A DNA stretch of 26,830 nt from a virus. The DNA lies in the IMG/VR virus record IMGVR_UViG_3300042865_000417, positions 1 to 26,830 of that record; one strand, written 5' to 3'. The notes beneath the pieces are model-generated. The model made no database searches and had not been told where the DNA came from. It was given only the letters and a program-made list of their open reading frames with translations. Position 1 is the stretch's first letter, and the number at the start of each line of letters is the position of its first letter. Below, one piece after another: positions 7,735-25,124 of this stretch. The position numbers were made by a program, and so were the translations under genes.

Positions 7735-8331
7735 ATGTATTCGGTTATAATTCCAACACTTTGGCGCAGCAATAGAACGTTACGATTAATATCGGAGCTT
7801 GTGCAATGCGATAAGGTTGGAGAGGTTATAATAATTGATAACAATCAAGGACACATTGCTGATGGGGGGAAGGTTAAAATATTATCAAATGGAAAAAACA
7901 ATTACGTTAATCCGAGTTGGAATATGGGAGTACACGTTGCTTCCAATTCACTTATCGCGATTTGCAACGATGATATCAACTTTTCTGCCAGCAAGATGTT
8001 TGAATTAGAACCAGACCATGGCGATATTTTTGGCATTGGTTCATCTTGTTATGATTGCGAATTTGAATTTGATTACCCAACTGTTTCGCCAATAAATTCA
8101 CGAGGTCACGGATGGGGATGTTTGATGCTTATGAGGAATGAGGACTATTTGCCTATCCCAAGTAACATGCGTGTAAGTTATGGCGATGACTGGTTATTTA
8201 AGAACGCAATGAATAGATACAACATAAACGGCATAAGAGTATCGACAGAAATGAGTACAACATCACGCGAGGCAGAGTTTATAGCTATTGCGGAACAAGA
8301 TAGCAAAATATGGCACACTTTGAACAAATAG
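7735..8331 (+). CDS. GT-A (family 2-like) glycosyltransferase
   Basis: The 198-residue protein is a compact nucleotide-sugar transferase. It opens with SVIIPTLWR (3-11), continues with EVIIIDNN (30-37) and NPSWNMG (59-65), and has a DxD-like NDD (78-80), RGHGWGC (123-129) and a GDDW acceptor-side motif (150-153). The pattern is that of short phage GT-A enzymes related to family GT2. It has no transmembrane anchor, so it would act in the cytoplasm. It follows the terminase and overlaps a methyltransferase by 22 bases, indicating a modification cassette. Substrate and acceptor cannot be read from the sequence; virion protein, DNA base or host glycan are all possible. Confidence 0.8.
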   Translation: MYSVIIPTLWRSNRTLRLISELVQCDKVGEVIIIDNNQGHIADGGKVKILSNGKNNYVNPSWNMGVHVASNSLIAICNDDINFSASKMFELEPDHGDIFGIGSSCYDCEFEFDYPTVSPINSRGHGWGCLMLMRNEDYLPIPSNMRVSYGDDWLFKNAMNRYNINGIRVSTEMSTTSREAEFIAIAEQDSKIWHTLNK

Positions 8332-8837
8332 AATGGTGCAACCTGATTAAGGTTGCACACCCGGAATACTTCGTTGGAGTTAGTGTTCTTGATGTTGGAT
8401 CGTTAGACATTAACGGCAACAATCGTTATTTATTTTATCATTCCGACATTACCGGCATTGACATTGGTGAAGGTGCAAATGTTGATGAGGTTTGTAGTGG
8501 TCACGAATATAAGAGTAAAACAAAGTTTGATGTGGTAATTAGTACAGAGTGTTTTGAACACGATGCCAATTATGGCGAAACTTTGAGAAATATTTGCAAT
8601 AAGCTCTTAAAAAAAGGCGGTCTATTTATATTTACTTGCGCTACCGATGGAAGGCCAGAACATGGCACAAAACGCACATCGCCAAAGGATAGTCCGTACA
8701 CAACTGATTACTATAAAAACCTAACCGAAGCCGACATACGTGCCGAGGTTGACATTGATAAGATATTCACACAATATAAGTTTAAGTCACGCACAACGTT
8801 TCCTCAAGACTTGTATTTTTATGGCATCAAAAAATGA
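8310..8837 (+). CDS. Class I SAM-dependent methyltransferase
   Basis: The 175-residue product has the Rossmann-type methyltransferase motifs: VLDVGS (26-31) for SAM binding, GIDIGEG (49-55) with the acidic residue for the ribose, FDVVISTECFEH (73-84) as the motif IV/V region, and LKKGGLFIFT (100-109). This looks like the Methyltransf_11 type that methylates small molecules or sugars, rather than a DNA methyltransferase, since no NPPY/DPPY motif is present. Its start lies 22 bases inside the glycosyltransferase gene, so the two may act on the same product, for instance an O-methylated sugar. The stop overlaps the next ATG by 4 bases. Confidence 0.8.
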   Translation: MAHFEQIEWCNLIKVAHPEYFVGVSVLDVGSLDINGNNRYLFYHSDITGIDIGEGANVDEVCSGHEYKSKTKFDVVISTECFEHDANYGETLRNICNKLLKKGGLFIFTCATDGRPEHGTKRTSPKDSPYTTDYYKNLTEADIRAEVDIDKIFTQYKFKSRTTFPQDLYFYGIKK

Positions 8838-9193
8838 TTTGTTCAACACATTACACGCAGTCAGTAAGTGGTTGCGTAAGTGACCTTAATTTCACTATAC
8901 CTGGTATAACATCTGCTAACGATTGGACTGTTAGATTTACTTTTCAATCAGGCGCATCAGTACAACAACCAATTGTATTTAATGGATATACTGATGAGTT
9001 TACCATTAGTAATGAAAACTATTGGCACATCGGCACAGGAGAGGTTGTGTTTGAGTTTTTTAACGATGAGGTCAATTGTGCTGCATTTGAGTTTACCCAT
9101 TGCGATGATACTTATAATGGTATAAACATTAATTTTACTAACATTCAAACAGAAAATGATTATGTCATTATTCCATGTAATTGCCCTGAATAG
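8834..9193 (+). CDS. Beta-rich hypothetical phage protein
   Basis: I do not recognise this 119-residue protein. It is rich in Thr, Asn and aromatic residues, with alternating hydrophobic strands (VRFTFQSG, DEFTISNENYW, EVVFEFFND) that suggest a small beta-sandwich, as seen in virion decoration or fibre-associated proteins. It contains several Cys (C3, C14 and a terminal CNC). It is coupled by ATGA to the methyltransferase upstream and overlaps the membrane protein downstream by 38 bases. A virion role is inferred from the operon only. Confidence 0.65.
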   Translation: MICSTHYTQSVSGCVSDLNFTIPGITSANDWTVRFTFQSGASVQQPIVFNGYTDEFTISNENYWHIGTGEVVFEFFNDEVNCAAFEFTHCDDTYNGININFTNIQTENDYVIIPCNCPE

Positions 9194-9449
9194 CCTTGTA
9201 ATTATTGGTGTTCATTTATTAACCAGAGTTGGTATGTTGCTTTATCCTTTTGTCAATGATGATTGGCATGAATACATTCGCAAACCATTGTATGACTGCC
9301 CACCTTGTATGGCTTCGGTGTGGGGTATTGCTGGTTGGTTTTACTTTGCACCTGATGTCAATATAATTATTTACTTACTTGCCTTATGCGGACTCAATGG
9401 TTTGCTATCAGCGATATTATACATTACATGGGAACACACGAACGAATAA
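9156..9449 (+). CDS. Small membrane protein with conserved CxxC loop
   Basis: The 97-residue product has a hydrophobic N-terminal helix (about residues 4-32), a polar loop with KPLYDCPPCMASVWG carrying CxxC, a short hydrophobic stretch after it, and a second hydrophobic helix (about 67-90). It should sit in the cytoplasmic membrane with two or three passes. A second in-frame ATG at 9162 is equally possible. Similar CPPCMASVWG-loop proteins occur, as I recall, in Bacteroidota phages and prophages without known function. A holin-like or superinfection-related role is conceivable, but nothing in the sequence proves it. It overlaps both neighbours. Confidence 0.65.
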   Translation: MIMSLFHVIALNSLVIIGVHLLTRVGMLLYPFVNDDWHEYIRKPLYDCPPCMASVWGIAGWFYFAPDVNIIIYLLALCGLNGLLSAILYITWEHTNE

Positions 9450-9604
9450 CGGCAGCAGGTTGGGTTTTTAAACGCGAGAGTTGTGGTTGTGGAGGTGCAG
9501 AGAAAAAGCGTTACTATGTTAAGGAAAGTGATCAGTTAGTATTTTATACACGAACGAAAAAAATAACTATAAACAATGTTATCAAAGATATTCAAGAAAT
9601 CTAA
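9428..9604 (+). CDS. Small Cys-containing hypothetical protein
   Basis: A 58-residue product starting MGTHERITAAGWVFKRESCG with CGCGG soon after, followed by KKRYYVKE and a strand-like KKITINNVI. The spaced cysteines could bind a metal, but only two are present. The in-frame ATG at 9386 would add 14 residues but would overlap the membrane protein gene by 64 bases, so I prefer 9428 (22-base overlap). It overlaps the tail chaperone gene by 29 bases. Function unknown; the context is the start of the tail module. Confidence 0.6.
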   Translation: MGTHERITAAGWVFKRESCGCGGAEKKRYYVKESDQLVFYTRTKKITINNVIKDIQEI

Positions 9605-10163
9605 ACCAACTTATAAAACAGATTATGCGTTGGAATTTGCGTTTAAATGTGGCGATGTTGACTACTTTGAGTTTGTAGATAAAAACAATCTTCCTTACGA
9701 ACGTGGACTTGAAGCTCTGACATTTTATCAAGAAATGCAGAATGGTGTAACCAATGATTACATTAAGAATTACAACGCAGCAATGAGCAAGTTGTTAAGT
9801 GATCCAAAAAAAATAAACCTCAACGAAATTATAAAGTTGCAATCACGATTTGAAGAACGATGCAACTATATCGTAAGCAAAGAAATAATTTACAAGGTTG
9901 CTTCGGTTGCGTTTGTGGATAAAAGTGAGCCATTGACACGTTATGACTTTAAGGCCAATGAAAAGAAGATAAAGAACTGGAAGGAGAATGCCGGAGATAG
10001 TTTTTTTTTGTCAATGCCAATAAAGAAATTAATTCCGTTTTTGCAACAATCAGAACACACTTCTCTGATGTATTTGAACGTGGTGGAAAAAATAGAGAAG
10101 ATACAACAGGATATTCTTTTATTGCAAACATTAGAGATGGAATTGCAAGCCGAGAACGATTAA
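9576..10163 (+). CDS. Tail assembly chaperone, zero-frame product (gpG-like)
   Basis: The 195-residue product lies directly before the tape measure gene, the place where nearly all long-tailed phages encode tail assembly chaperones. It starts basic (MLSKIFKKSKP), continues with TDYALEFAFKCGDVDYFEF and RGLEALTFYQEM, and is helical to the end. The 0-frame C-terminus after residue 144 (IKKLIPFLQ...EKIEKIQQDILL) has an amphipathic helix, so it looks like real coding sequence rather than random readthrough. In lambda, gpG and its frameshift form gpGT bind the tape measure and tube subunits during tail assembly and are absent from the finished virion. The assignment rests on position, architecture and the slippery site rather than on sequence identity to gpG. 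Confidence 0.75.
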   Translation: MLSKIFKKSKPTYKTDYALEFAFKCGDVDYFEFVDKNNLPYERGLEALTFYQEMQNGVTNDYIKNYNAAMSKLLSDPKKINLNEIIKLQSRFEERCNYIVSKEIIYKVASVAFVDKSEPLTRYDFKANEKKIKNWKENAGDSFFLSMPIKKLIPFLQQSEHTSLMYLNVVEKIEKIQQDILLLQTLEMELQAEND

Positions 10164-10288
10164 AAATAACCGTGCTAAAATATTTACCAGCGAATTATCC
10201 AATAAATTTATTATCTTTGTACGATTTCTTTTTCTTTGCTAATGAAGCGAAGAAGACACCACCTAAACCACAACAAACCAAGCGTTAG
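9576..10288 (+). CDS. Tail assembly chaperone, -1 frameshift product (gpGT-like)
   Basis: Joining 9576-10007 with 10007-10288 gives a predicted 237-residue fusion. The -1 frame is open from just after a TAG at 9998-10000 to a TAG at 10286-10288, and that stop overlaps the tape measure GTG (TAGTG). The 93-codon extension reads like protein: GIASRERLKITVLKYLPANY, then a hydrophobic LLSLYDFFFF block, then a basic KKTPPKPQQTKR tail. Without it, the 124 bases between the 0-frame stop and the tape measure gene would be an exceptionally long gap for this operon. The arrangement matches lambda G/T, where the minor fusion product recruits the tape measure protein. Frameshifting itself is inferred, not seen. 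Confidence 0.7.
10001..10007 (+). promoter_or_regulatory. Slippery heptamer T TTT TTT (programmed -1 frameshift site)
   Basis: In the chaperone frame the codons are AGT TTT TTT TTG, giving the X XXY YYZ heptamer T TTT TTT at 10001-10007 within a run of nine T. Slipping back one base enters the 93-codon extension. An AAGGAG at 9981-9986 lies 14 bases upstream, similar to the stimulatory Shine-Dalgarno of dnaX. No strong hairpin is evident at the usual 5-9 base distance downstream. Confidence 0.7.
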
Positions 10289-12669
10289 TGGAAAATGTAA
10301 TAATAAAATTTGTTGCCGACACATCTGGTCTTGAACCTGCGATTAAGCAGTTGCAATTATTAGGAAAAATTAGTGAGGAAGATGCAGCCAAGTTTAATCA
10401 GATAAATCAAGAGCAAAAAGAGTTCATTCAAAATGTGAACAAGTCAACTACTGAAATGGGCAAATTGTCTAATGAAGTAAGTGACCTGAACAAAAATATG
10501 TCGCAAAACGTTATCGGCAAGGCTGCTGCTGATTTGGAAGAGTTTACCACCAATAGCACTAATGCTATGACTGGTGCTAAAACATTAAAGGCAGAGTTAA
10601 GAGAACTGAAGCAACAAATAGCATCTGGTAATTTTACCGGAAAAGAGTTGGCTCAAATGACCAAACGTGCTGCTGAATTAACTGACCATTTAGGAGATGT
10701 CAATGAAAAAATTAAAGCTCTATCATCTGACACCAAGAGAATAGATGCTATGGTTGGTGCAATGAAAGGAGTAGCAGCAGCAGCATCAGTAGCAGCAGGT
10801 GCAACTGCATTGTTTGGAACTGAAAACAAACAAATGGCCGAGGCAGCGCAAAAGGCACAAGCAGCAATGGCATTGTTAGCAGGTGTTCAAGAGATAGCAG
10901 CATTAGTAACATCTGAAAATGCAACAAAGACATTGTTTTTAGATGGCGCACAGAAGCTTGCAACTGTATCATCAGCAATAATGGGTAGAACTATTGCTGC
11001 ATCAACTGCGGTTGCAACTGGTGGTATAAGTTTACTTCTTGCTGGGTTAGCTTACCTAATTATTACTATGGATGATGCGCGTGATACTGCAAATACTATG
11101 AATAAGGCTTTGGAGGGCGATGCAGAAGCAAGAAAGAAAGCAGTTGACATCAGAATTGCAATAATGAAAGATGGTCAAATAAAAGAAAGGCTTTTATTAA
11201 AGAATGAATATCAAAAACAATTAAACGACCTTTATGAGCAAGTAAGAACTGAAAAAGTAAGTAGAGCAGCAAGTCAATCGTTATCATTAGCATTAACTCA
11301 AAAATATTTTAAAGATTTACAAGATTTATCAGATAAGTATAAAAAAATAGAGGCCGATGCGGCAAAAGCATTGGCAGATAAAAAGAAAGCAGAGCAAGAC
11401 AAGTTAGATAAATTAGCAGAAGAATCACGCAAGAAAGCCGAAGCAGATGCTGCCGCACGTGCTAAACTTTTAGCAGATTTAACGCAACAACTTCAACAAA
11501 ATATGATTAGGCAAGAAGCAATTCAAACCGAATATTTAAAAAACGTTGATGAGATTGATGCGATGTATGCTGAACTTTCACAAGATAGAAGATTTACAAC
11601 TTCCGAGCAAATTTATGCTGAAATTGAAAAACGATTGCAAGCCGAATACGAAGCATCCGTAAAAAGGGCGCAAATTGATATGGCAGCAAATCAACAAATA
11701 AAGCAAAATTATTACGCACAAACCGACATACAAATTCAGTTTAAAAAAACACAAGCAGAAGTTGATGCTGAATATGAAAAAATTGCACAAGAAGGTAGGC
11801 TTACAACATCGGCTCAAATTTATGCAGAGATTGGAAAGCGTTATCAGGCAGAAGTTGATGCAACTAAAAAATCAATTGAATTAGAAAGACAAAAAGCAGC
11901 ATTTGTAATTGATCAAGCACGTGTAATTACAGACACTATATTTACACTAAATGAGCAAAACAGACAAGCAGAATTTGATGCACAAATGTCAAGACTTGAT
12001 GAAGGCCGTGAACGTGAACTGGATAACAAGAATTTAACTGAAGCACAACGATTGCAGATTGAAAAACGTTATAGTCAAGAAGCAGCGAAGTTAAAAAGAC
12101 AAGCATGGGAGCAACAAAAATCAGCCGATTTAGCACAAGCAATAATTAATGGTGCGCTTGCAGTTAGTAGAGCTTGGACTTTAGGATTACCAGCAGCCAT
12201 ACCAGCAGCTATTGCAGCAGGGGTAGCAACGGCAGCACAAGTGGCAATTATTTCTAATACAAAACCACCAAAATTTGCGGATGGAACTGAATTTTTAGTT
12301 GGTGCAGGTACAGGTAGAAGCGATAATAATCTTGCATATTTATCACACGGAGAACGTGTTGTGCCTGCATCGGTAAATAGTGATTACTTTCCGGCATTAT
12401 CAGCAATCCATAACAGAGAGGTTGAACCTACATTTGCCAATAATATATTGACTGCATTGGCTGATGGTACATTTAATCTTGCATCACAATACCATCAATC
12501 TCAAGGGCAAAATAAACCATCAATGGACATTGAAAAACTTGGCAAAGTGTTAGAGCGTAATAAGTCCAACGTGAATATAAACATTGACGAGAATGGCTTT
12601 AACAAGTATGTTGAGAAGATGAGCAGCAAAACTGAATTTAGAAACGCTAAACTTCGCATAAAAGTATGA
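10288..12669 (+). CDS. Tape measure protein
   Basis: The 793-residue protein is long, Lys/Gln/Ala-rich and largely coiled coil, with hydrophobic segments at about 159-180, 235-261 and 615-655, the pattern of tape measure proteins that fix tail length and form the DNA channel in the host envelope. Near the C-terminus GERVVPA (about 688-694) is a motif often seen in tape measure proteins. Two copies of an unusual unit, EIDAMYAEL and EVDAEYEKI, each followed by TTSxQIYAEI and separated by 69 residues (422 onward and 491 onward), show internal duplication. The lambda relation of about 0.15 nm per residue predicts a tail near 120 nm. The start is GTG, overlapping the stop of the frameshift product. 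No lysozyme or peptidase domain is visible. Confidence 0.88.
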   Translation: MENVIIKFVADTSGLEPAIKQLQLLGKISEEDAAKFNQINQEQKEFIQNVNKSTTEMGKLSNEVSDLNKNMSQNVIGKAAADLEEFTTNSTNAMTGAKTLKAELRELKQQIASGNFTGKELAQMTKRAAELTDHLGDVNEKIKALSSDTKRIDAMVGAMKGVAAAASVAAGATALFGTENKQMAEAAQKAQAAMALLAGVQEIAALVTSENATKTLFLDGAQKLATVSSAIMGRTIAASTAVATGGISLLLAGLAYLIITMDDARDTANTMNKALEGDAEARKKAVDIRIAIMKDGQIKERLLLKNEYQKQLNDLYEQVRTEKVSRAASQSLSLALTQKYFKDLQDLSDKYKKIEADAAKALADKKKAEQDKLDKLAEESRKKAEADAAARAKLLADLTQQLQQNMIRQEAIQTEYLKNVDEIDAMYAELSQDRRFTTSEQIYAEIEKRLQAEYEASVKRAQIDMAANQQIKQNYYAQTDIQIQFKKTQAEVDAEYEKIAQEGRLTTSAQIYAEIGKRYQAEVDATKKSIELERQKAAFVIDQARVITDTIFTLNEQNRQAEFDAQMSRLDEGRERELDNKNLTEAQRLQIEKRYSQEAAKLKRQAWEQQKSADLAQAIINGALAVSRAWTLGLPAAIPAAIAAGVATAAQVAIISNTKPPKFADGTEFLVGAGTGRSDNNLAYLSHGERVVPASVNSDYFPALSAIHNREVEPTFANNILTALADGTFNLASQYHQSQGQNKPSMDIEKLGKVLERNKSNVNINIDENGFNKYVEKMSSKTEFRNAKLRIKV
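11551..11880 (+). repeat. Internal duplication in the tape measure protein
   Basis: Protein segments from E422 and from E491 share the pattern E(I/V)DAxYxxxxQxxRxTTSxQIYAEIxKRxQAE, about 40 residues repeated at a 69-residue period. The DNA has diverged more than the protein, so the duplication is old. Repeats of this type change tail length by whole units. Confidence 0.7.
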
Positions 12670-14873
12670 TTTGGCAATTTAGATTAATAGACATAACCAA
12701 TATGTCGGTAATAGTTGATGAGCCAATAGGTTGGGATGGCATTGCGTGTAATTTTACACGCAATATGATGCATCACGGCATATTTACTAACGTAACTACA
12801 AACTCATTTGAATGGGTAGATGATGCCTACGATTTGTTGTATGCAGAATATCAAACCAATGGTGCTAACGGAACAATGGAGTTGTTAATTGAGTATGAGT
12901 GTGCAGATGGCGATGGGTATACTACTTATTTTCAAGGCAAATTTGACTTCAATACATTTGAAAGGCAATGTTTAGATTATTGTTTTATTAAGTGCGATGT
13001 AAGTGCAACAAAATGCACAGATATATTTTTATCACGCATGGGTCAAGATGTTGACATTTTAAGTACGCAAAACTTTGATGGCGATGCAATAAGTCCAATG
13101 AGTTATACTACATTGAATATTGAGGGTCAAGATATATTTTTGCAAAATACTGCAAACAATAAAGATGGAGCAAATTGGAGTGGACACCATGATGACAATA
13201 TTGGTATAGCTCCTGCTAATAGATACTACTACTTTCCAGTTTATTTGCCTAATAATCCGATAATGGAGTTTGGAGATAGCAACATTTCAAATGTATCTCC
13301 ATCACTTGTTTATATAGATAATGCACAATCTAATATAATAGTTTGGCCAATGTTACCCATTCAATATTTGGGTTATCAAAATTTATCATTTTATACGGCC
13401 ACAACATCTGAAAATATTATCAATACAATAGATGTTACATGGCGATGCAAAGGTACAATGACAATAACTTGCAGTTACGATGCAGACTTTGACCTTTATC
13501 TTTTTGCAGAAAAAGCATCAAACTTTGCATTTTTAACATCTTTAGGAAGTACATACATTGCAACAGGCTCAATAGCTGCAAATACACCATTAGTTGTATC
13601 TTTTGATGTTTCATTTACAGGAACTGTTACAAATCCAACGTTTGTGTTGCAGCAAATAAGTTATTATTTTAACATTGATATTGTAAAAATAACAACTTCA
13701 GGTCTTGATACATTCGATGTAAGCGTTGATTATGATGCAGGTGGTGTTAACTATTTCAATATGGAAGCGAATAGTAGTAATTCTGCATCTGTTACGCGTT
13801 CAGTTCCATTGCCTGACCTTTTAGAGTTTTTACCGACTGCATATTATTCAAATGAATGTCCAGCGGTAACAATTGAGAGTGAGCTTCGTGATTGTCTTAA
13901 TAGATATTCAATAACTAAAGGATCATTTATTCGCCAGGTAACAGAACCGAGTGTTCCGCAACTATTTACAAGTTTTGAATTTATGATTGAAAACTGCCGA
14001 AAGATATTTAATATTGGATGGGGTTTTGATAATAATGAAACAGATTTAATTATTGGCCGAATTGATGAATTTTATAAATCAACAATAGTTGCTGATGTTG
14101 GCTTGGTTAACAAAGCTACATTTACAAATGCTAAAGATTTAATTTACGGAACGATTAACGTAGGTTATAACAAGTGGGAAGCCGAGGAGTATAATGGACT
14201 TGATGAAATGAATACAGAGCGACAATATCGCAGAAACATCGACTCAAACCCATCAGAGTTAGACCTAATGGCCGACATCATTAGTGCCGGTTATACGATT
14301 GAAGTAACACGTAGGAAAAACCAAGCCGAAACTGGCACAAGTGATTGGAGATATGATGATGATATATTTATTATTAATTCAGAAACTATTGATGGTTTTT
14401 TATACGCAATAAGAGGTATTGATAATGGAGCTGCAAACATCTATTCACCATCAACACGAATGAATTACGTATTGACACCGGTAAGAAACTTGTTGAGGTG
14501 GTTTAAGTCATTGGCTGGAGCATCTCCAACAGTTGCTAATGAGTCGCAAATATTCACAAGTGGAACAGGTAATTACATTGCAGAAGGTGAAATGACTGCG
14601 ACCTGTCAAATAGAAAATCAACCTATTGCGGAAAACGTGACCATAAGCACCGCTATAATGGGCGATGTGTATTATGAAACTCCGATATGGAAAACAATTT
14701 ATGCAACATTTGAAGCACCTTTATCAATGGTGCAATTTGAAGCGATAAAAACAAACGTGTATGGTGCAATCAGGTTTCGTTGTGGGAATGATTTATACCT
14801 TGGGAACATTGTAACTTTAAGTCATGAACCAAACACCGGACTTGCAACATTTAAACTTTTAATAAGAAGATAA
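12666..14873 (+). CDS. Predicted distal tail / baseplate protein
   Basis: A 735-residue protein directly after the tape measure gene (ATGA overlap). In long-tailed phages this position encodes distal tail or tail-hub proteins. The sequence is beta-rich with many Asp, Asn, Thr and aromatic residues and scattered Cys (ECADGDGY, LDYCFIKCDV, TIESELRDCLNRY). The N-terminal part (WQFRLIDITNMSVIVDEPIG, FEWVDDAYDLL) is the sort of sequence seen at the start of Bacteroidota phage minor tail proteins. I see no lysozyme, peptidase or carbohydrate-binding motif. It carries a perfect 11-bp palindrome 75 bases after its start. Function is assigned from position. Confidence 0.65.
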   Translation: MIWQFRLIDITNMSVIVDEPIGWDGIACNFTRNMMHHGIFTNVTTNSFEWVDDAYDLLYAEYQTNGANGTMELLIEYECADGDGYTTYFQGKFDFNTFERQCLDYCFIKCDVSATKCTDIFLSRMGQDVDILSTQNFDGDAISPMSYTTLNIEGQDIFLQNTANNKDGANWSGHHDDNIGIAPANRYYYFPVYLPNNPIMEFGDSNISNVSPSLVYIDNAQSNIIVWPMLPIQYLGYQNLSFYTATTSENIINTIDVTWRCKGTMTITCSYDADFDLYLFAEKASNFAFLTSLGSTYIATGSIAANTPLVVSFDVSFTGTVTNPTFVLQQISYYFNIDIVKITTSGLDTFDVSVDYDAGGVNYFNMEANSSNSASVTRSVPLPDLLEFLPTAYYSNECPAVTIESELRDCLNRYSITKGSFIRQVTEPSVPQLFTSFEFMIENCRKIFNIGWGFDNNETDLIIGRIDEFYKSTIVADVGLVNKATFTNAKDLIYGTINVGYNKWEAEEYNGLDEMNTERQYRRNIDSNPSELDLMADIISAGYTIEVTRRKNQAETGTSDWRYDDDIFIINSETIDGFLYAIRGIDNGAANIYSPSTRMNYVLTPVRNLLRWFKSLAGASPTVANESQIFTSGTGNYIAEGEMTATCQIENQPIAENVTISTAIMGDVYYETPIWKTIYATFEAPLSMVQFEAIKTNVYGAIRFRCGNDLYLGNIVTLSHEPNTGLATFKLLIRR
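12741..12764. repeat. Perfect 11-bp palindrome inside the 5' end of the distal tail gene
   Basis: ATTGCGTGTAA (12741-12751) and TTACACGCAAT (12754-12764) are exact complements separated by two T. In RNA this gives a compact hairpin of about 9-10 bp with a short loop; in DNA it is a near-perfect operator-like palindrome. It encodes residues around IACNFTRN, so it is constrained by coding too. No U-run follows, so it is not an intrinsic terminator. Confidence 0.55.
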
Positions 14874-15766
14874 TGGCAGCAATATTAAACATACCTAATA
14901 GCTTTGTAACCTTTTACAACTTGGCGAATGATTTAGGCATACCCGAGTATGTAACTGATACCGAGTGCGGAATTCAGAAAGACTTTTGCTTACCGATTTA
15001 TGAGGTTAGCGATGTTGCATTTCAAACGCAAATAGTATCAAGTGAAGTAATAAGTAGCGTGACAGTTTATAAAGTGCCGACAAGTGGCACTGGTATAATT
15101 TTAAACGACGTAATAACAAGCATTGTAACTAATGGAACTCAAAGTGGAGTGCCGATTTACAATATTTATTTTTCCTTTGTGTTATCTGACTTACTTGATA
15201 ATACTTTTGATGGAGATTGTTTTCAGTTAGCGTTTGCGTGTGGTGTTTCTGAGCCAAGTTTTTTTATATCGAATCAATGCTTTAAAAAAATTAACGATAA
15301 ATGTTTGACAACTAAACTACAATATTTTAATAATGAAAACGCATTTGGTTTTCTTTATAGAACCGCAGTTGTTGTTATTAATCCACCACCTGCACCACCA
15401 TTGCTAATACCAACAACAAACTATATTCGCTTACCATTGTATCTAAAAGAACCAATAATAAGCAGCACAAAAAATGTTTATGTCCGTAGTGATGGAAGCC
15501 GTAAATTGTTATCTGCAAGGTTAGCAAAAAAATACAAGGCATTTGTTGATAATGTAACAGAGGAAGCTCACCAAAATATTGTTGTTGCTCTTAATCATGA
15601 TCAAATAACTTTGACACCGGAGAACTTAACAAATGGTATTCAGGTAAGATTTGAAGATGAGTACAACAATAATTTCCCAGAAATTATGCAGAACGTATCT
15701 GTTTGGTCGGCAGATTTTAGTATCTTTGAAACGCCATTTAACAATTTCAATTCAAACTGTTTATAA
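14873..15766 (+). CDS. Hypothetical tail-tip associated protein
   Basis: I do not recognise this 297-residue product. The first two-thirds are beta-rich (SSVTVYKVPTSGTGIILNDV, YNIYFSFVLSD) with paired cysteines in DTECG, KDFCLP and FACG. A proline-rich linker NPPPAPPLLIP starts near residue 170, after which RLPLYLKEP and a basic SRKLLSARLAKKYK segment follow. The stop-start TAATG overlap on both sides places it between the distal tail protein and a glycosyltransferase. A structural role at the tail tip is inferred from context. Confidence 0.55.
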   Translation: MAAILNIPNSFVTFYNLANDLGIPEYVTDTECGIQKDFCLPIYEVSDVAFQTQIVSSEVISSVTVYKVPTSGTGIILNDVITSIVTNGTQSGVPIYNIYFSFVLSDLLDNTFDGDCFQLAFACGVSEPSFFISNQCFKKINDKCLTTKLQYFNNENAFGFLYRTAVVVINPPPAPPLLIPTTNYIRLPLYLKEPIISSTKNVYVRSDGSRKLLSARLAKKYKAFVDNVTEEAHQNIVVALNHDQITLTPENLTNGIQVRFEDEYNNNFPEIMQNVSVWSADFSIFETPFNNFNSNCL

Positions 15767-16617
15767 TGAAAACTGGAATACTAATAATAGCAGTAGGTGC
15801 AAAGGGTTATGGACAATTAGCAGGTTCATTGGCAGCTTCATTACGTGCTAATAATGTTACATTGCCAATATGTTTAGCGCATCAAAAGGACACAATTACG
15901 CGACTTGATGAACAATATTTGAGTTTGTTTACCGACTTTGTTTTGATTGATGATAAACACATAACCTTAAATGACAATATTGAGTGTTTCATCAAAGCAA
16001 AGGCACACATGGATGAGTTGACACCATATGACTACACATTGTTTTTAGATGCAGATGTGCTTGCGTTAAATAATGGCACTATCAATGCAGAGATTGAAAA
16101 ATTAAAAGACATTGACTTTACAATCAAAAATAAAGGACTTAATAAAACTGTATCTATTTGGGCAGATATGAATGAGGTTGTTAAAGTTTATGAACTTGAA
16201 AATAAAGATGTGTATGAAATACATTCCGAGTTTATATGGTGGAAAAAAGGCCACCCTGCAATGGTAAAATGGGCAGAAAACTTTGAGAATTTAAAAGTTA
16301 AACCAACTAATTTCGCTGGTTGCGTTGCCGATGAATTACCATTGTTTATTTCAATGGCTCAAACGAACACCAAACCGCACATAGATAATTACAATCCCAT
16401 TTATTGGTTTAATCAGGATAGTAAACTGCAAAAGAGAATTAAGGATATGAAGGAGGAAGGATATTGCGGTTTAAGCATTGGAGGTAATGCAATTCCAACT
16501 GTACAACGTGAAGCCTACGATGTATTAGTTACGATTTATGCAAAGATTTTAAATTTGCGACAAACATTTAAAGCGCAACCAAAAAGAAAATGGCTTGCAA
16601 ATAGAACACATTTATAA
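15766..16617 (+). CDS. GT8-like glycosyltransferase with DxD motif
   Basis: The 283-residue protein begins with a Rossmann-like strand and turn (TGILIIAVGAKGYGQLAGSL) and carries YTLFLDADVLAL with D95-x-D97, the metal-binding DxD of GT-A enzymes. The downstream segment FIWWKKGHPAMVKWAENF and the acidic ADELPLF are compatible with a nucleotide-sugar transferase resembling GT8 or related phage enzymes. No membrane segment is seen. It is locked between a tail gene and the portal by 1-base overlaps on both sides, so it is co-expressed with virion proteins. It differs in sequence from the family 2-like enzyme at 7735. Acceptor unknown. Confidence 0.72.
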   Translation: MKTGILIIAVGAKGYGQLAGSLAASLRANNVTLPICLAHQKDTITRLDEQYLSLFTDFVLIDDKHITLNDNIECFIKAKAHMDELTPYDYTLFLDADVLALNNGTINAEIEKLKDIDFTIKNKGLNKTVSIWADMNEVVKVYELENKDVYEIHSEFIWWKKGHPAMVKWAENFENLKVKPTNFAGCVADELPLFISMAQTNTKPHIDNYNPIYWFNQDSKLQKRIKDMKEEGYCGLSIGGNAIPTVQREAYDVLVTIYAKILNLRQTFKAQPKRKWLANRTHL

Positions 16618-23376: not shown

Positions 23377-23930
23377 ACAATAAAGCAATTATAACTGAAA
23401 TAGACAAAGCTTTAATTGATGCTATTAAGGTAGAAAATAAACGTGCATTTGGTATGGCTGATTTTTATTTTGATAACGATAAAAAATATCCAGGTATCAT
23501 TGATAAAGAAGAAATAATTAATCCATTCTTGCAAGATCAATATAAATTAAGTTGGTATCATCGCAGTTCAACAAGTGTGTTGAGTGTAATGGAATATAAC
23601 TATGGTAATAAAATGGACAAAGTAGAAGAAACTACACCTGTTCAATTGATAATTTTTACTCGCGCTGCATTAAGTTTTGAAACAATAAAAGACTGGTTTG
23701 TTTCTGCGCTTCCAAGTGTGTTAAATAAAGCAATATGTGAGAGTTTGCAGATATTTAATTGCACTATCGAGGTTAGAGGTACAGAAATGAATAGCAATGT
23801 TGTTTTTAAAGAAGAATGCACCGAACCCAACGTGAGAGTTGGAGGTCAATATGGATTAATTGCAATCCGATACGAAATCAAAACAAGCTATCGCAGAGGT
23901 TGTCAAACATTCTGCGACTGCACAAACTAA
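23373..23930 (+). CDS. Tail completion / tail terminator-like protein
   Basis: The 185-residue product lies between a neck-type protein and the tail tube-like genes, the place of the tail terminator in siphoviruses. It is mixed alpha/beta: an N-terminal helix (IITEIDKALIDAIKVE), strands around TPVQLIIFTRAALSF, a helix FVSALPSVLNKAICESLQIF, then strands NCTIEVRGTEMNS and GLIAIRYEIKTSY, ending with CQTFCDCTN. The overall order resembles tail terminator folds, but no diagnostic motif is present. The next gene starts 8 bases later. Confidence 0.55.
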   Translation: MNNKAIITEIDKALIDAIKVENKRAFGMADFYFDNDKKYPGIIDKEEIINPFLQDQYKLSWYHRSSTSVLSVMEYNYGNKMDKVEETTPVQLIIFTRAALSFETIKDWFVSALPSVLNKAICESLQIFNCTIEVRGTEMNSNVVFKEECTEPNVRVGGQYGLIAIRYEIKTSYRRGCQTFCDCTN

Positions 23931-23938
23931 AAAAAACA

Positions 23939-24481
23939 ATGGCTTATTATCCATCGGGTTGCGACTCTAATATCGCAGACCACGTATGCGGAACTTGCGG
24001 AGTCGAATTATCGCGCGTACGTTCTGTCGCATTCGTAAACAAACAATACTACCCAACACTTATAACTGATCTTGAAGATAGTTCATTATGGGCTGCTGGT
24101 ATTGCATCTGGAAATATTTATATTTACCCGGAAGTGCAAGGTGAATTTGATGGCGGAACACCAAACATGGGTCAGGGATATGGTGATACTGAAGAGCAAC
24201 TAAATAGTTACACTTACATGTTATCATACAAAGACCCTAACTACGTTGGCAACCGCGACCATTTTAACACAATAAAAGGTTCACGTAATTTTCACGTTGC
24301 TTTCAGAAGCGAAACTGTGATTTCAATTAGTGATGAGCCTTGTACTATTGTACCAAAAAATCCAATTGCTAATGACTTAAAGTTAGAGCGTACATGGGAT
24401 ATTGAGGTAAAATGGACATCGGAAAACTTCCCTGCTGAAGCAATTACACCAGACAACGTATTTACCTGTTACGTACCATAA
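23939..24481 (+). CDS. Tail tube-like protein, copy 1
   Basis: The 180-residue product begins MAYYPSGCDSN and contains CGTCG, SRVRSVAFVNKQYY, GQGYGDTEEQLNSYTYMLSY, KDPNYVGNRDHFNTIKGSRN and a closing PDNVFTCYV. It is homologous along its length to the following gene. Position after the tail completion gene, size and beta-rich pattern suggest the major tail (tube) protein. I place the start at 23939 rather than at the in-frame ATG 23816, which would add 41 residues read through the previous gene in another frame and destroy the match with the second copy's start. A hairpin follows the stop. Confidence 0.68.
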   Translation: MAYYPSGCDSNIADHVCGTCGVELSRVRSVAFVNKQYYPTLITDLEDSSLWAAGIASGNIYIYPEVQGEFDGGTPNMGQGYGDTEEQLNSYTYMLSYKDPNYVGNRDHFNTIKGSRNFHVAFRSETVISISDEPCTIVPKNPIANDLKLERTWDIEVKWTSENFPAEAITPDNVFTCYVP

Positions 24482-24516
24482 ATTGATTTAGAAACCCCGT
24501 AAGGTTTCATCAATTT
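24480..24516 (+). terminator. Hairpin between the two tail tube-like genes
   Basis: AAATTGAT (24480-24487) pairs with ATCAATTT (24509-24516), and inside it GAAACC (24491-24496) pairs with GGTTTC (24503-24508) around a 6-base loop, with a three-base bulge TTA on the left. Four T end the element. The stem starts in the stop codon of copy 1. It could act as a weak terminator or as an RNA-processing site that sets the ratio of the two products. Confidence 0.55.
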
Positions 24517-24530
24517 TAAACTAAAAAAAA

Positions 24531-25124
24531 ATGGCTTACTACCCAAGTAACTGCAATGAAATACCAACACATCAATCTTGTACTTGCGAAGCAGAGATGG
24601 GTCGCGTTAGAGGTGTTGCGTTAATACATAAATCATTTTATAATCAAGTAGCAATTGATCCTGAAAATAGCATCGTTTGGCAAGCAGGTGTTAATTTGGG
24701 AATGATTGTATTATTACCGGAAACAAATGGCGAATATACTGCCGAACCAATCAATGGCCGAGGTTATGGATATAGTGAAGAAACATTTGTAGCATTTAAA
24801 CATCTTGTAACTTATCAAGACCCAGACTTTTATGGCAATGTAGAGCATTACAATGCGATAAATGGCAGCAGAAATTACTATCTTGCATTTATAACTGAAA
24901 CTATATTGCACTTGGCACAACGGCCTTGTAATTTAATAGTTAATTTACCTATAAAAAATAGTGTGAAAGATGATGTGTTGTACACTATTACTGCACGTTG
25001 GACACACGATTTATTACCTCAACAATATTTGAAGCCTGACAATGTATTTGTATGCAACATTAGCACTAATGTTTATGGAGCTTCATTTGACAATAGTTTT
25101 GATGATTCATTTGACAATCCTTAA
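24531..25124 (+). CDS. Tail tube-like protein, copy 2, with C-terminal extension
   Basis: The 197-residue product is a diverged paralogue of the preceding one, with matching blocks MAYYPSNC, GRVRGVALIHKSFY, GRGYGYSEETFVAF, YQDPDFYGNVEHYNAINGSR and PDNVFVCNI in the same order and spacing. It has an extra 20-residue end, NVYGASFDNSFDDSFDNP, made of a repeated SFDN/SFDD unit. A duplicated tube-like gene may supply two subunit types (as in phages with two tail tube proteins) or a tube and a decorated variant. A 49-base gap with a hairpin separates the copies; the fibre gene starts 2 bases after the stop. Confidence 0.66.
   Translation: MAYYPSNCNEIPTHQSCTCEAEMGRVRGVALIHKSFYNQVAIDPENSIVWQAGVNLGMIVLLPETNGEYTAEPINGRGYGYSEETFVAFKHLVTYQDPDFYGNVEHYNAINGSRNYYLAFITETILHLAQRPCNLIVNLPIKNSVKDDVLYTITARWTHDLLPQQYLKPDNVFVCNISTNVYGASFDNSFDDSFDNP
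25082..25118 (+). repeat. Direct repeat encoding the SFDN tail
   Basis: TTCATTTGACAAT occurs at 25082-25094 and again at 25106-25118, 24 bases apart, with a diverged third unit between them. The copies encode the SFDN repeats at the end of tail tube-like copy 2. Short acidic-aromatic repeats like this at protein ends are prone to expansion. Confidence 0.7.

Follow-up and report, generated by a model that had tools for sequence, protein, structure and literature searches.

Predicted -1 recoding at a conserved run of nine Ts upstream of the tape measure gene in related uncultured phages

The gene immediately upstream of the tape measure gene in an uncultured phage genome appears to encode a tail assembly chaperone pair of the gpG/gpGT type, made by a ribosomal -1 shift and with a long, dual-coded alternative C-terminus on the unshifted form. 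For this reading as a whole we estimate a probability of about 0.58. The window, i.e. the whole stretch of DNA that was analyzed, is an entire IMG/VR virus record of 26,830 bases. The features of the locus are as follows.

9576..10163, + strand: 0-frame ORF, 195 aa; residues 1-144 in both products, followed by a 51-residue alternative C-terminus
9998..10000, + strand: -1 frame TAG directly 5' of the T run, in the main clade only
10001..10009, + strand: predicted slip site, a run of nine Ts (T9) with in-phase heptamers T TTT TTT (10001-10007) and T TTT TTG (10004-10010)
10007..10288, + strand: -1 extension, 93 codons plus TAG; fusion residues 145-237
10008..10163, + strand: dual-coded overlap, 53 codons from the slip to the 0-frame stop, about 159 bases
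10286..10290, + strand: TAGTG, overlap of the extension stop with the tape measure GTG start, from the sequence and the relatives
10288..12669, + strand: tail length tape measure protein, 793 aa (phrog_9483, E=6.9e-4)

Structure of the locus and predicted products

A first-pass annotation of the window described a -1 frame open for 93 codons from the TAG at 9998-10000 to the TAG at 10286-10288, overlapping the tape measure GTG. These coordinates are correct, and the last G of the second TAG is the first base of the GTG. In many relatives TAATG or a near overlap replaces TAGTG at this junction, and the TAG before the T run is absent from the more distant clades. The slippery sequence had been given as T TTT TTT at 10001-10007, which is in phase but incomplete, the run really being nine Ts from 10001 to 10009. 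It is flanked by AG on the 5' side and GTC on the 3' side, is read in the 0 frame as AGT TTT TTT TTG, and is unique in the window by a count of runs across all 26,830 bases. The fusion would be read as 9576-10007 followed by 10007-10285 (144 + 93 = 237 aa). Small ORFs at 8834-9604 lie directly upstream of the 0-frame ORF.

In the model that we propose, most ribosomes would stop at 10163 and yield the 195-residue form, while a fraction would shift back one base at the T9, on one or both of the tandem heptamers, and read on to 10288 to yield a 237-residue fusion that ends differently. By analogy with lambda gpG/gpGT and P2 E/E+E', the short form would coat the tape measure protein and the fusion would recruit tail tube subunits. 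The sequences themselves show the conserved run, coding in both frames and the adjacent tape measure gene; that the shift takes place and in what ratio, that the products are chaperones, and that it is the ribosome that slips are the parts of this model that we infer.

Conservation of the T9 run

Relatives were collected in five scans of IMG/VR, using as queries the 0-frame protein, alignments of it, and alignments of the extension. Seventy sequences were tallied, namely the window and 69 further contigs covering the site; contig L295 was added last, for a total of 71. In all 70 tallied sequences and in L295 the run is exactly nine Ts long and keeps its phase. Some of the scans used peptide patterns that did not include the run, and the T9 was kept in those finds too. 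Relatives are 81-97% identical to the window in the 0-frame protein, and identity falls to 28% in the most distant, L246, in which the extension is 15% identical. The immediate context of the run is variable, with AGT, GGT or GCT on its 5' side and TTG or TTA on its 3' side. The base preceding the two Phe codons is nevertheless invariably T, though the residue may be Ser, Gly or Ala; a T is needed there if the slip run begins at 10001. When 15 diverse relatives were compared over the 135 bases from -45 to +90, T9 was the sole invariant block of at least 4 bases. Exact T9 runs are also rare elsewhere: about 622 kb of the relatives' loci contain 77, of which 70 are at the slip site, and no longer run was found. 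Seven T9 runs therefore lie outside the slip site; three of them were examined, and each has a short -1 frame. Missequencing as the source of the nine Ts was rejected, as T9 agrees in 71 sequences from many separate assemblies.

In one subclade a second T9 run is located in the gene after the tape measure (L011:8894-8902, also in L010, L014, L016 and L017); its -1 frame is short and no second fusion is evident.

The first-pass annotation had also supposed that a run of eight Ts in the DNA would leave only the fused frame. This is arithmetically wrong: T8 leads into the +1 frame, which stops within about 6 codons, and fusion at the DNA level requires T10 or T7. A contingency locus was also weighed, in which the length of the T9 would vary in the DNA and toggle the fused form within the population. 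Homopolymer runs in bacteria do vary in this way (PMC3711429), but T8 or T10 alleles were found in 0 of the 71 sequences and both frames are constrained within the same genomes (see below), and we regard this as the least probable of the explanations weighed here, with hardly any likelihood.

Coding in two frames

The chance that the -1 frame would be open was estimated from the window sequence alone by keeping the 0-frame protein constant and sampling synonymous codons according to the codon usage of the window. The -1 frame stayed open through the 50 overlap codons in 1.1% of simulations. By itself this is modest evidence, and it is the relatives that decide the matter. Broken -1 frames or out-of-phase runs in relatives, which the first-pass annotation had held would count against a frameshift, did not occur: the frame is open and the run in phase in every relative that reaches the site.

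A comparison of conservation frame by frame in relatives, also suggested at that stage, was done with pairwise pN/pS, calculated separately for each region of the locus in three clades. Upstream of the run, constraint acts on the 0 frame (pN/pS 0.08, 0.03 and 0.10 in the three clades), and many stops interrupt the -1 frame. Past the 0-frame stop it is the -1 frame that is constrained (0.18, 0.21 and 0.04), and the 0 frame contains stops. Within the overlap neither frame has stops and both have intermediate values, 0.33, 0.62 and 0.47 for the 0 frame and 0.91, 0.74 and 0.64 for the -1 frame, with bootstrap intervals that are wide in the two small clades. In the main clade 0-frame pS falls from 0.61 upstream to 0.23 in the overlap. 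The earlier description of this stretch as coding in two frames is borne out. Of 17 diverse sequences, 16 have 53 codons between the slip and the 0-frame stop; the exception, L246, has 77. None of the 17 has an ATG, GTG or TTG within the first 53 codons of the extension, which could therefore be reached only via the upstream gene, as a fusion.

The simplest alternative is that a single frame is real and that the other is a leftover, an artifact of a misread T run, or a gene with a start of its own. An open -1 frame is, at 1.1%, not very improbable for any one sequence. However, the T9 is agreed by many separate assemblies, each frame is constrained exactly where it is expected to be, the 0-frame stop is held at a constant distance, and the initial part of the extension has no start codon of its own; this alternative is very improbable. 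The strict conservation of the run, the switch of the constrained frame and the missing start codons instead uphold the proposal that the gene before the tape measure gives a -1 recoded fusion, and we are confident that the gene yields two products by -1 recoding. A conserved, dual-coded alternative C-terminus of 53 codons suggests a function for the tail of the unshifted form itself. In none of these genomes would the extension be seen by annotation confined to single-frame ORFs.

The extension had been described as having no homology that could be named. No homolog of known function was found, in agreement with this; it does have relatives, in about 70 uncultured phage contigs. In four of these a T8 run lies inside a conserved DFFFF motif of the extension, in 0-frame phase 2 (L235:3618, L241:3654, L108:4648 and L109:4603), possibly as a mere consequence of Phe codon use.

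The tape measure neighbor and the chaperone assignment

The identity of the downstream gene is well supported in the relatives. In several of them it matches PHROGs tape measure families (phrog_18891, phrog_3336, phrog_9483 and phrog_25241, E 1e-6 to 3e-13), and in L246 it matches Pfam TMP_3 with E=4.4e-36. The recoded gene thus lies immediately upstream of a tape measure gene and has an in-phase slippery heptamer followed by a conserved open -1 extension, both of which characterize genes of the gpG/gpGT type. In that group, which includes lambda, P2 and HK97, the gene is found between those for the major tail tube protein and the tape measure, and the fusion, produced at a low ratio, binds both of these proteins and does not enter the virion. 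The first-pass assignment to a gpGT-like tail chaperone accordingly agrees with position and architecture, but no homology to a known chaperone family was found by profile searches (Pfam, PHROGs), sequence searches, or fold searches of PDB and BFVD, the latter giving no structure match with E below 0.05. Tail assembly chaperone families are very divergent, and missing homology therefore leaves a chaperone function possible.

For the fold searches the 0-frame product and the extension were modeled as separate pieces, with moderate to low confidence (pLDDT 75 and 62). The model of the 0-frame product has a small beta hairpin followed by helices, the alternative C-terminus forming a long helix (164-193), and the extension is modeled as three to four helices. 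Since the fold model is only of moderate quality (pLDDT 75), the null result of the fold search is weak evidence against a chaperone. No relative was found among the INPHARED phage records and 84,980 species genomes, and the proteins seem to form a previously undescribed family without recognizable homologs.

A real recoding event need not involve a tail assembly chaperone, and the protein could be some other tail or head factor that precedes the tape measure. Consistent with this, neither homology nor fold links it to known chaperones, and candidate tail tube genes are not adjacent to it in this genome: no tube gene was recognized by profile, and the candidates, at 23816-25124, are in another module. 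Against it, in the relatives examined, among them L246 with its clear TMP_3 match, the gene comes directly before the tape measure, and a -1 extension of this design is typical of tail assembly chaperones. We consider such a role improbable and, by analogy of position and architecture, assign the gene as very likely a tail assembly chaperone. If this is correct, a protein family without recognizable homologs is added to those with which phages make two forms of the tail chaperone.

The tail protein gene after the tape measure (12666-14873) matches phrog_15220 (virion structural protein, E=2.9e-50) and is distantly related to proteins of Rhodobacteraceae, Tenacibaculum and Leeuwenhoekiella phages. 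The probable tail proteins encoded at 23816-24481 and 24531-25124 resemble each other and have no family match.

Ribosome or RNA polymerase

A -1 fusion encoded ahead of the tape measure is needed at a low level by lambda and many other tailed phages, and some tailed-phage ribosomal -1 shifts occur without stimulators (PMC5009743); the shift of P2 E/E+E' uses an in-phase TTTTTTG with no downstream hairpin (PMC3091744). In our sequences two candidate stimulators were rejected: an RNA structure (z-scores from -1.0 to +1.1, no covarying helix and no Rfam match), and a Shine-Dalgarno-like sequence at 9981-9986, which is not conserved in relatives.

A homopolymer of about nine A or T at the frame junction is also what characterizes transcriptional slippage of the mxiE type, and nine is the length for efficient slippage of bacterial RNA polymerase in vivo (PMC5009743); slippage of Shigella mxiE was measured at 20-30% (PMC4256274). 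RNA polymerase might thus add a U on the T9, so that the mRNA would carry ten Us; the same two products would result and the chaperone role would be unchanged. This explanation fits the occurrence of exactly nine Ts, never a lone heptamer, in 71 sequences, a number equal to the published efficient length. It also fits the near absence of T9 elsewhere in the relatives' DNA and the lack of ribosomal stimulators among those sought. Positions 1, 8 and 9 of the run are invariant, as a requirement for its full length would give. However, the two overlapping proteins also restrict positions 8 and 9: changing the T at position 8 to C keeps Leu in one frame and replaces Phe with Ser in the other, so that the overlap alone could hold bases 8 and 9.

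Other considerations favor the ribosome. The run also contains two in-phase ribosomal heptamers, and those phage chaperone pairs with a studied mechanism that we found use ribosomal frameshifting; no case of transcriptional slippage in tail chaperones was found in the open papers searched. Slippage rates on such runs in other bacteria exceed the low ratio that lambda needs. Data on the polymerase in Bacteroidota phages were not found. On balance, we favor ribosomal slippage as the main mechanism, with some reservation, over polymerase slippage, which we rate as possible but rather unlikely; both may act on the T9. Were polymerase slippage responsible, the ratio of short to long form would be set at transcription. 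A clean T9, kept down to 28% protein identity without other signals, permits a direct test of ribosome versus polymerase.

Host and genome organization

Of 26 starts inspected in the window, 25 have no Shine-Dalgarno motif, and the nearest relatives of the primase are in phages of Nonlabens, Cellulophaga and Flavobacterium. From the two together we infer a Bacteroidota host; on this sequence evidence the window probably represents an uncultured phage infecting Bacteroidota.

The order of the modules between 6470 and 25124 is unusual. Terminase is followed by chaperone, tape measure and distal tail genes, then by portal, scaffold-like and major-capsid-like genes, with the probable tail proteins last. 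Glycosyltransferase-like and methyltransferase-like ORFs, judged by eye, lie within the structural block at 7735-8331, 8310-8837 and 15766-16617.

Comparison with known systems

The locus resembles lambda gpG/gpGT in its position just before the tape measure gene and in its single start, from which a -1 shift would give two products; no stimulatory structure is needed in lambda or was found here. The lambda slip sequence is GGGAAAG, in place of which there is a T9 run here; the dual-coded 53-codon 0-frame tail and the lack of detectable homology are further differences from lambda. In lambda the slip is near the 3' end of gene G, with the G portion binding the tape measure protein and the T portion the tube protein (PMC5009743). 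Annotated SEA-PHAGES chaperones have a mean slip-to-stop distance of 26 nt (PMC10885494); the 53 codons found here are far longer, which we counted against our preferred reading.

There is also similarity to P2 E/E+E' and to the corresponding genes of KS5, KS14 and KL3, which have TTTTTTG in the same phase and no downstream hairpin (PMC3091744). For P2 a simple heptamer is described, whereas here there are exactly nine Ts forming two tandem heptamers, and the searches made revealed no relationship to the P2 proteins. Slippage of the Shigella mxiE type shares the long A or T run and the second product (PMC5009743, PMC4256274), but mxiE is not a phage tail gene and its slippage is documented by RNA and protein data, where ours is predicted from sequence.

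Seven phages related to this one through their tape measure, primase, terminase or tail protein were compared as well: Polaribacter P12002L, Nonlabens P12024S, Tenacibaculum JQ, Leeuwenhoekiella Arctus_1, Cellulophaga phi46:1, a Rhodobacteraceae phage and the uncultured ctUtU524. In their chaperone-like genes before the tape measure, neither T9 nor a comparable in-phase heptamer was present in the overlaps examined. In Tenacibaculum phage JQ (L317:1950-2965) and Leeuwenhoekiella phage Arctus_1 (L319:2964-4015), the tape measure is preceded by two annotated genes that overlap each other in the -1 frame, with no obvious slippery heptamer. Three features set the locus apart from the described cases: the strictly conserved T9, a new family of proteins, and an overlap of about 159 bases that is dual-coded.
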